From Levilactobacillus brevis (lineage in GTDB: Bacteria > Bacillota > Bacilli > Lactobacillales > Lactobacillaceae), in assembly GCA_003666485.1 (NCBI GenBank), contig CP032931.1, positions 2,914,001 through 2,978,000 on the forward strand: 64,000 nucleotides of DNA, in the 5' to 3' direction. The first letter of the stretch is position 1; each line of letters opens with the position of its first letter. Shown here one piece after another: positions 96 through 64,000 of this stretch. The notes under the pieces are model-generated. The model saw nothing but the letters and a program-made list of their open reading frames with translations, was not told where the DNA came from and searched no databases. The translations under genes were made by a program, and so were the position numbers.

Positions 96-181
96 CTTAC
101 ACTCTGAAAAAAATGCAATTAGCCAGATTCATTATGACACCAAGGTTTACGGCTATAAAATTAGTCGTTGAGAGCAAGGTA

Positions 182-745
182 GTCCGTGCTGGCCGCCTTA
201 CCGTTCGCCAAATTTGGACCGTGACGCTGTGGGAAGGACCGGTCGAAGCCAAAAGTCGGTCTTCAACCTCGCTTCGAGCCGAAAATCACGTCTCGAAGAC
301 GCCAGTTTCCAAGAAAATCACTTGAAAACTCCCACGGCTGAGTCCAAATTTAGCTCACTCACAGCTACATGACAGATTACCCACTAATGTTGTCCAGCAA
401 CTTTCCTACTAACTGGTACCGACACCACTGGATGTACCGAATGCTAGCTAACGCCGGCGGGTTGGCACTTGTCAGTAATACCGAATTGGGTCAGATTTGG
501 CCACAATTCGCCTGTTCAAGGACTAAACTGATTGGCAGTGAAACATCTCTGTAGCCGGGAGTCCGCCAAATATGAGCTCAGCCGTGGGAGTTCCCTTAGC
601 GGCACGGTTTACGCCGGTTAGGGAACTGGCGACTTTGAGACGTGAACTTCGGCTCGAAGTCGAGGAGACGAGACCGCTCTTCGGCTCGTCCCGCCGCCCA
701 CCGCGTTCCGGCTCATATTTGGCAGACGGAAGGCGGCCAGCCCCC
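182..745. repeat. Dispersed repeat with long inverted arms, copy A
   Basis: This non-coding stretch fills most of the gap between 43 and 788. The left arm (about 182-372) starts GTGCTGGCCGCCTTACCG and ends near CTCACAGCTACATG. The right arm (about 549-745) is an imperfect inverted copy, starting GTAGCCGGGAGTCCGCC and ending GGCGGCCAGC. The arms enclose roughly 175 bases of unrelated core. The same arms with a different core recur at 31409-31945, and a third copy starts at 63974. Short reading frames inside are not conserved between copies, so I do not call a gene. It could be a non-autonomous mobile element or a structured RNA. It ends about 45 bases from the stop of the next minus-strand gene. 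Confidence 0.75.
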
Positions 746-788
746 ATTGCAAGCGGAACCTTTGACAGCCACATGTCTTCAGTGACAT

Positions 789-1751
789 CTATTTGCGACG
801 CCGTTTCCGCCGCTTCTTTTGGCTGTACTTGATTTGTTTGATGTGTTTCTTATGGGTCAATTGCCGGTCGGTCGTGAACAGTTCGCGGCTGGTCGTGGGA
901 TGGGCCCGCAAGTAGGCCTGCGTGAAGGCGTCCACGGCTTTAGTATCGGTGGTATCAATATTTTCATTTTGCATGGCCGTGGTCAGGTCTTCAAAGAAGC
1001 TTTCCAACTTGGGGTCGTACATCGTAACCAACGCCGTGTGGTGCTCGCTGACCCACTTTTCTAGGTCAGCGGCTGCGGGTAGCTTGTGTTGATCGGCTAA
1101 GTAACCGAACAGCGTCGTCAGCGCAAATGGCACCAGGTTGAACAGCGTCGGTACCCGGTCGGCCTCATCCAACAGGTGGGTGAACGGGCCAAACATGATT
1201 TCACTCAGCGTTGGCACGTCCCAGTCTTGAGGCTGCTTGCCCTTACCCGTGATCATGAGTTCTGCGGTCGTGTGCACGATGGTCACGAAGTTTTGCAGAT
1301 CACCCTGTGACAGGTTGGCCACGTCGGCCTGCGCCGTCATGGCTTGGACCCACCGTTCTACTTGGGCGACGACACCCTCATAGGCGGTCTGCTCGCTGGC
1401 AGCGTCGGCATGCTTTTCCACCAACGTGGGCCGTGCCTGCTTTAAAGCGGCATCCAGGGCCGACAAATTAGGGAGCTGTTGGGCCTTGAAATAAGCCGTC
1501 AGCACCGGAACAACCGCCACAAAATACAGGTGCGGCTGATCAACCATCGTTGGTAAGGCGGCCAAGGTCGCAGCCACCTGTTGCGGCGTCCAGTCGCCCT
1601 GCGCCATGTTCACCGTTTCCCGAACGTGCAACACATCCGTCAAAATGTCAGCGGCATACTTTTGCTGATTAGCTGATAATGAAGCCAACCGTTGCGGCGT
1701 CAGGAATTCTGCCGGCGTCAACGATTTGGCAGTTGAATCTGATTGTTCCAT
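789..1751 (-). CDS. Uncharacterised protein with basic C-terminal tail
   Basis: I do not recognise this protein of about 320 residues. It is soluble, mostly helical in appearance and rich in Ala, Thr and Gln. No signal peptide or membrane segment is visible. The last about 20 residues are extremely basic (KKHIKQIKYSQKKRRKRRRK), which suggests nucleic-acid or membrane-surface binding. I prefer the ATG at 1751, because GGGGT lies about 9 bases upstream. The ATG at 1760 is almost on top of that ribosome binding site. The gene stands alone between the agmatine operon terminator and repeat copy A. Confidence 0.7.
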   Translation of the reverse strand: MEQSDSTAKSLTPAEFLTPQRLASLSANQQKYAADILTDVLHVRETVNMAQGDWTPQQVAATLAALPTMVDQPHLYFVAVVPVLTAYFKAQQLPNLSALDAALKQARPTLVEKHADAASEQTAYEGVVAQVERWVQAMTAQADVANLSQGDLQNFVTIVHTTAELMITGKGKQPQDWDVPTLSEIMFGPFTHLLDEADRVPTLFNLVPFALTTLFGYLADQHKLPAAADLEKWVSEHHTALVTMYDPKLESFFEDLTTAMQNENIDTTDTKAVDAFTQAYLRAHPTTSRELFTTDRQLTHKKHIKQIKYSQKKRRKRRRK

Positions 1752-31408: not shown

Positions 31409-31945
31409 GTCCGTGCTGGCCGCCTTACCGTTCGCCAAATGTGGACCGTGACGCTGTGGGAAGGACCGGTCGAAGCCCAAGAACGGTCTTCAACCTCGGC
31501 TGAGTCCAAATTCAGCTCACTCACGGCTACGTGGAGAATCACCCACCAATGTAGCTGAACGTTGCTATTTCAGCAATGTTCCTGCCAATTTTGTGACCGA
31601 GCACTGCTGTAACTGTGGATGTCGGGTGTGACCCAATTTAATAGTCATAATTTCTGTCACCAGCTTCACTGCTGGTTGGCGTTTATCAGCAGCATTGTCT
31701 GCCCTTCAACGCTGCCAAGAAACACTCCGACTGGTGATAAATCATCCCCGTAGCTGAGAGTTCGCCAAATATGAGCTCAGCCGTGGGAGATTCCTTAGCG
31801 GCACGATTCACGCCGGTTAGGGATCTGGCGACTTCGAGACGCGGTCCTTCGGCTCAAAGTCGAGGCGTCGAGACCGCTTCTTGGCTCAACCCGTCCGCCC
31901 ACCGCGTTCCGGCTCATATTTGGCGAACGGAAAGCGGACAGCTCA
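31409..31945. repeat. Dispersed repeat with long inverted arms, copy B
   Basis: The left arm (31409-31534) matches copy A from GTCCGTGCTGGCCGCC on but lacks about 76 bases. The right arm (31749-31945) has a perfect inner inverted pair, GTTCGCCAAATATGAGC near its start and GCTCATATTTGGCGAAC near its end. The core between the arms is different from that of copy A. The gap 31317-31991 holds nothing else: no coding region, promoter or terminator that I can support. Confidence 0.8.
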
Positions 31946-58697: not shown

Positions 58698-58750
58698 GTA
58701 TTTAACAACGTTGCGTGGTGCTCGCCGACTTACGGTTGATCAAACCAGTT

Positions 58751-59056
58751 ACCTGCGGCTGTCAGGCATTCCGCCTGCTATGGGGGACACCTCCAGCCTG
58801 AAAAGCGGGCTTCCGGTTCGCTTGAAAGCCTCGCCAAAATCGCGAGTCTTCCAAGTCGCCCCACGCTGTAACCTGGCCCAAAACGCCAGGTAACACCGTC
58901 GACACAGCTGGCTACACGCCTGACCGCCTCCGGTATGTTTGCCACTCGCGCGGACATGGCAGTGGTCCACCCCTCAGAACTCAGTGTTCTGGGTCCAATG
59001 ATTCACGCCGGACGACCACGACAACTCTGTGAGTGGAACGCCTGACAGCCACAGGT
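58751..59056. repeat. Non-coding element with inverted ends
   Basis: ACCTGCGGCTGTCAGGCATT at the left end is the inverted match, with three mismatches, of AACGCCTGACAGCCACAGGT at the right end. The inside has further short stems (for example CAGAAC/GTTCTG). A minus-strand frame inside has no ribosome binding site and lacks protein-like composition. With the C-rich segment and terminator before it, this accounts for the 625-base gap 58452-59076. It ends 20 bases from the stop of the next minus gene. Confidence 0.6.
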
Positions 59057-63973: not shown

Positions 63974-64000
63974 CTTGTAGCCGAGAGTTCACCAAATATG
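63974..64000. repeat. Start of a third copy of the inverted-arm element (cut by window end)
   Basis: CTTGTAGCCGAGAGTTCACC and the following AAATATG match the start of the right arms of copies A and B (GTAGCYGRGAGT, then CCAAATATG). No left arm is visible in the preceding 170 bases, so this copy may be a single arm. Confidence 0.6.

Follow-up and report, generated by a model that had tools for sequence, protein, structure and literature searches.

The window, a 64,000-nucleotide stretch of Levilactobacillus brevis DNA (contig CP032931.1), contains two copies, A and B, of a dispersed element in which two inverted arms enclose a core, and the edge of a third copy, C, at its right end. Each arm is a folded unit of its own, with four helices and a length of about 185 bp. 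The features in the window are listed below, with bit scores from an arm profile and a covariance model.

117..790 (borders approximate): copy A, whole stretch absent at the orthologous site of genome G003, which reads GAAAAATGC then CTACTTGCGACGCC
188..368, plus strand: left arm of copy A, short-P4 'L' subfamily; profile 168 bits, covariance model 174.8 bits
369..550: core of copy A, with partial relatives (72-79%) in other copies in the same genome
551..741, minus strand: right arm of copy A, long-P4 'R' subfamily, facing the left arm tail to tail; profile 185.3 bits, covariance model 182.4 bits
31377..31397, plus strand: left unit of the direct repeat flanking copy B (21 bp, 90%)
31415..31530, plus strand: left arm of copy B, with an internal deletion (hairpins P3 and P4); covariance model 75.5 bits
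31531..31749: core of copy B, with about 25 other cores related to its first ~80 bp
31750..31942, minus strand: right arm of copy B; covariance model 182.5 bits
31977..31997, plus strand: right unit of the direct repeat flanking copy B
63977..64000, minus strand: tail of the arm of copy C (model positions 162-185), the remainder lying beyond the window

The arms align well between A and B and the cores only in short stretches, bearing out the two-armed organization proposed in the initial annotation. The right arm had been described as an imperfect inverted copy of the left, and the two arms of A indeed match each other at 71% over 197 bp (E 4e-16). A third copy had been placed near the window end; the covariance model finds its full arm continuing past that end, from position 63977 outward (L275 1178-1366, minus strand, 185.3 bits).

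The likeness of copy A to other copies in the genome begins at position 117, 71 bp ahead of the left arm. Copy A folds far better than its shuffled versions (z of -15.2 and -14.4 for the two strands), and besides 2 bases of a neighbouring gene only ORFs of 61-88 amino acids overlap it. The left arm of copy B lacks about 65 bp and covers profile positions 1-84 and then 151-187. The same P3 and P4 deletion was also observed in L101 (4539-4652) and L105 (16774-16889); as several arms have it, the short arm form may itself have spread. A weak further arm match lies on the plus strand at 58745-58936 (19.3 bits, E 0.0013), possibly another decayed copy.

Fold, abundance and distribution of the arms

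An alignment of 41 arms from the window's genome and other genomes of the genus gave a fold made up of a long closing stem, P1, that continues inward, together with the three hairpins P2, P3 and P4. P2 and P3 have a common motif, GAGCC...GTCTC. For the model alignment (A2), two arms of genome G032 (L127 and L128) were omitted from 40 representatives and three arms from the window were added. Under the four-helix structure 93.8% of 1927 cells are paired, with double changes in 30 of the 48 pairs. Double-change cells number 205 in the arms and 53 in shuffles, and none of 500 shuffles reached any of five measures. Slid versions of the structure fell far below the true register on the covariation measures, a comparison that favours the true register, since the structure was derived from the same sequences on which it was scored, and in which the effect is still large. 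Many unpaired positions are nearly invariant, and the loops are conserved.

Searches of the window's genome returned at least 44 matches to the left arm and at least 46 to the right arm. The arm profile, built from 86 arm sequences that do not all come from separate loci, found 60 arm matches, fragments included, in 464 kb of this genome: 55 in twenty 20-kb stretches taken at regular steps (400 kb) and five in the window. This density, about 0.14 matches per kb, extrapolates to several hundred in the 3.1-Mb genome. The 58 strong arm matches (at least 139 bits) have a G+C content of 0.51-0.65; a partner arm was found at E 0.01 for 32 of them, whereas for the 26 without one at that threshold the partner may have been lost or have diverged. 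Weak partner arms unseen by the sequence profile were picked up by the covariance model.

Arm orientation was counted over 885 kb, in stretches of five genomes, some chosen for holding arms, after removal of five weak matches that overlapped better ones (105 of 110 kept). Among 34 pairs of neighbouring arms less than 700 bp apart, 30 were tail to tail, four in tandem and none head to head. The claim that all copies lie next to gene ends proved only loosely true. The arms are mostly intergenic; among 46 sampled arms of at least 60 bits with an ORF on both sides, as judged by a simple ORF heuristic and exclusive of those of A, 31 lay between codirectional, 10 between convergent and five between divergent ORFs. 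Two of the five 'divergent' arms are those of B, miscalled, as B sits between two minus-strand genes. Between codirectional ORFs, 14 arms were sense and 17 antisense, giving no hint of a transcribed-strand function for the arms.

As DNA, the left arm has matches in 22 of the 35 genomes that represent the genus, one of them the window's own. Within Lactobacillaceae the covariance model matched 87 of the 301 genomes sampled, and 13 of 40 genera. In an order-wide sample it matched 13 of 295 genomes, only one of them outside the family, by a single weak match (E 3.9e-5). The estimate of several hundred strongly folded arms per genome concerns a food-relevant bacterial family, and the arm family offers a comparative test, through wobble content and strand balance, of whether a nucleic-acid fold serves as RNA or as DNA.

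Ends, cores and mobility

Seven copies in the window's genome align over about 620 bp. In the best preserved of the copies, L003 and L015, inverted ends, ACTAAAGGTTGCAAG and CTTGCAACCTTTAGT, lie outside the arms with small differences, and a similar right end, CAACCTTTAG, is found in most of nine G003 copies, in some with one base changed. Among the loci examined in the window's genome, eleven elements contain an arm and are bounded on both sides by ACTAAAGGTTGCAAG-like ends with at most three mismatches, measuring 358-751 bp end to end. A direct repeat of 6-7 bp abuts the ends in six of the eleven and in none of 110 mismatched control pairs. The other five lack an exact 6-bp duplication, among them L239, whose 12-bp repeat contains one mismatch. 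The 21-bp repeat on either side of copy B was excluded as a target duplication on account of its length, above 6-7 bp, and its likeness to the end of the element; only one related unit of it is present at the sites of B in G003 and G026.

At orthologous sites the element is absent from G003 for both A and B and from G026 for B, and the G026 site of A retains an end remnant, ACGGTAGGCGGCCAG. Further copies in the window's genome are missing from, or present as remnants in, G003 or G026, indicating that insertion and loss both occur. G003 and G026 themselves (L245-L264) carry one ~475-bp inner element in dozens of similar copies whose core is conserved, the apparent product of a later burst than the one in the window's genome.

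The 58 end matches with at most two mismatches include nine convergent pairs, 357-616 bp apart, and no convergent pair spaced at 616-6000 bp, as an autonomous partner in the genome might be. At four of the eight loci with unpaired ends, no transposase was evident among the ORFs, as judged by reading. A search for a plasmid-borne element with the same ends returned eight records with a best E of 0.2, all of which covered less than 80% of the query, and window 170-760 had no match in a plasmid or a phage collection. IS66 was considered as a source and rejected: the repeated sequence at L098 9122-9607 proved to be the end of a gene for an IS66 transposase (Pfam DDE_Tnp_IS66, E 4e-87), and the ACTAAAGG end is not evident by eye in its flanks. 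The IS66 genes at L098 7568-9516 (Pfam TnpB_IS66 and DDE_Tnp_IS66) adjoin an arm, and related DNA is present in G026.

The core of A has relatives at 11 other distinguishable places in the genome (72-79%, aligned over 57-186 bp), and about 25 others match the opening ~80 bp of the core of B (75-89%). The stretch of A, core included, matches L008 and L024 at 80-85%. These matches contradict the idea of exchanged cores and of an element that picks up passengers: the cores go back to a small number of sequences, of which they are degenerate relatives, an outcome named beforehand among those that would speak against it, and they had seemed unrelated because only two copies were compared. An invertible segment had also been suggested, but in every distinct matched segment, 13 for the core of A and 25 for that of B with the queries counted, the core end adjoins the arm tail in the same way as in the query, which gives inversion no support in these copies. 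On these alignments the cores are fast-decaying relatives in a fixed orientation to the arm. Of the proposed non-autonomous element with passengers, the mobility is supported, by the inverted ends, target duplications and empty orthologous sites, and the passengers are not.

The inverted ends and target duplications, together with the absence of A and B from G003, point to a MITE-like family. As an explanation of the whole, A and B are, with high probability, copies of some age and partial erosion that belong to a MITE-like, non-autonomous transposable element found in Lactobacillaceae. In its fullest young form, of about 620 bp, this element consists of a ~15-bp terminal inverted repeat (ACTAAAGGTTGCAAG), ~75 bp, an arm, a fast-evolving core, the opposite arm and the inverted end. 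A transposase acting in trans would have moved it by its ends, and many copies would have been truncated afterwards; movement by way of the ends is supported. Less certainly, the arms may have been kept for their ability to fold as DNA hairpins, cruciform or single-stranded, for example during transposition or replication. This last step is suggested by the way in which the stems change: one Watson-Crick pair mostly gives way to another, and G-U pairs are few.

Folded DNA, RNA or palindrome repair

The base pairs were tabulated over 97 arms (the 64 best of 110 rows of alignment A3 and all 33 rows of A4), giving 4172 Watson-Crick, 71 G-U, 84 A-C and 92 other cells. Five Rfam RNAs from the same genome gave 99 Watson-Crick, 16 G-U, 2 A-C and 10 other. 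G-U pairs therefore account for 1.7% of the standard pairs in the arms and for 14% in the control RNAs. The G-U to A-C balance also differed between arms and controls (Fisher p 7e-4, or p 0.005 with the arms read on the opposite strand), p values that are a guide only, since the copies are related and the control RNAs just five. Within the arms overall, 71 G-U to 84 A-C favours neither strand (p 0.34). In the 40 best-scoring arms A-C exceeds G-U by 34 to 11, which points, if anywhere, to the opposite strand, and G-U would still be below 2% if these arms were read on it. Random decay of single copies would likewise equalize G-U and A-C. More telling is the exchange of whole Watson-Crick pairs between subfamilies and between species, with few G-U pairs fixed.

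Loci shared between genomes allowed arms and cores to be compared in place. At locus 4, common to three species, the left arm is 86.9-91.3% and the right arm 88-90% identical (in G026 over just 121 bp of it), and the core 68-74%, with shuffles averaging 62-64% and reaching 81%. Because the neighbouring flanks are also conserved there, at 89-97%, the core is the outlier. At locus 3 the arm is 88% and the core 59% identical. In a tree of chosen arms, the orthologues at loci 3 and 4L grouped together or nearly so, the G003 arms at 2R and 6 and the G026 arm at 2R grouped with copies from their own genomes, and at 4R the nearest arms were not the orthologues. Arms have thus been kept by descent at some loci and overwritten or re-inserted at others. 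Among changed stem pairs in nine comparisons at five shared arms, 19 were compensated and 25 uncompensated, so that compensation in place is present and not dominant.

The combination of strong covariation, few G-U pairs and an arm kept while the core decays at two shared loci favours, without being conclusive, arms that act as folded DNA rather than RNA. Folded DNA is our first choice for why the arms pair; RNA and palindrome repair compete with it and carry about the same weight. In a more specific form, which we put forward only tentatively and hold to be less likely than not, the arms would be four-helix sites read as folded DNA and kept by selection after their carrier had decayed, a domesticated chromosome-wide hairpin set in Lactobacillaceae that would parallel attC or REP hairpins in principle and have a far larger fold. 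Should the arms work as hairpins of DNA, it could be tested directly which protein recognizes them and why they are retained.

A structured RNA family, one of the readings in the initial annotation, agrees with the same strong covariation. The arms would then be RNA elements in untranslated regions that modulate the stability of the mRNA or its termination, a role put forward for the BOX repeats of pneumococci or for Correia repeats, and their inversion would ensure that a transcript from either side meets a sense arm first. The tail-to-tail layout does read sense from both sides, the arms are mostly intergenic with conserved loops, and an RNA made from the opposite strand would agree with the A-C excess among the 40 best-scoring arms. 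Nevertheless, we consider this possible but unlikely given a G-U share so far below that of RNAs in the same genome and sense arms that are no more frequent than antisense ones between codirectional ORFs. Copy A also has no counterpart in Rfam: in window 150-780 no family matched, even at E 5, and none of the gathering-score matches in the window and seven other stretches of the genome fell on arms. An Rfam RT-18 RNA match (57.9 bits) was seen in this genome at L102 15520-15595.

Pairing might instead be kept by copying and not by selection, with template switching or gene conversion perfecting palindromes and homogenizing arms, so that covariation would arise without function; such copying could also act together with either the DNA or the RNA reading. 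Watson-Crick replacement on both strands fits this mechanism. So do the G003 arms at 2R and 6 and the G026 arm at 2R, which are closer to their own paralogues (94.8-96.3%) than to their orthologues (82.5-90.1%), the G003 element at locus 6, which resembles other G003 copies over its whole length, and 4R, where orthologues are likewise not nearest. Palindrome repair does not, however, explain the near-invariant unpaired positions, and at loci 3 and 4L the orthologous arms are closest or nearly so (86.9-90.2%) with cores at 59-74%, within the shuffle range. On balance we regard copying as an improbable, though serious, explanation.

Relation to known repeat systems

A literature search, with subscription papers largely outside its reach, returned no recognized description of this arm family. 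Lactobacillus johnsonii is tabulated in a survey of stem-loop families (PMC2267715), the accessible part of which does not describe the arms.

In integrons, the structure of attC matters more than its sequence, and the site works as folded single-stranded DNA. The arms share the idea of folded DNA with attC and differ in having four helices and in occurring as inverted pairs. The modules of pneumococcal BOX run in one direction. The arms are inverted twins, whereas BOX is described as consisting of boxA, boxB and boxC modules, and the likeness is one of described features: BOX, RUP and SPRITE of Streptococcus pneumoniae, another member of Lactobacillales, resemble the arms as numerous structured, modular and mostly intergenic repeats (PMC3049150).

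REP, BIME and REPIN sequences, as covered in the portion consulted of PMC3733652, likewise have palindromic units in opposite orientation and GTAG at one end. The arms might accordingly be giant relatives of REPs or REPINs, moved by a single-strand Y1, RAYT-like transposase that recognizes GTAG-tagged hairpins. Read from the core, they begin with GTAGCCG or near it, followed by a palindrome, their inverted pairs recall BIMEs and REPINs, and the genome has five Y1 transposase genes. Against this, the arm measures ~185 bp and a REP palindrome 20-40 bp, making the unit here five to nine times longer, and the inverted ends with target duplications suggest another enzyme. The association with RAYT was not seen at the five Y1 loci: within 1.5 kb of four of the genes there is no arm, and beside the fifth there is a single arm on one side, so that none is flanked by arms on both sides and a Y1 partner was rejected. 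A REP origin therefore seems very unlikely.

The closest likeness is to MITE-type repeats, which, in the sections of the sources that were at hand (PMC3049150, PMC10969869), share inverted ends, target duplications, small size, many copies, a mostly intergenic location and strong folding. Of the features by which MITEs are recognized, we observed terminal inverted repeats, target duplication, small size without a transposase gene, many copies, and presence or absence between relatives. AT-richness, a typical MITE feature, is absent, as the G+C content of the arms shows; the part of PMC10969869 consulted calls MITEs 'typically' AT-rich, so that this feature is not strictly defining. The element is unusual in stems that covary strongly yet hold few G-U pairs, and in arms that stay conserved at two shared loci where the core decays. 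It differs from MITE-type repeats in being GC-rich, in having no parent IS found in its own genome, and in carrying two separate multi-helix arms that covary.
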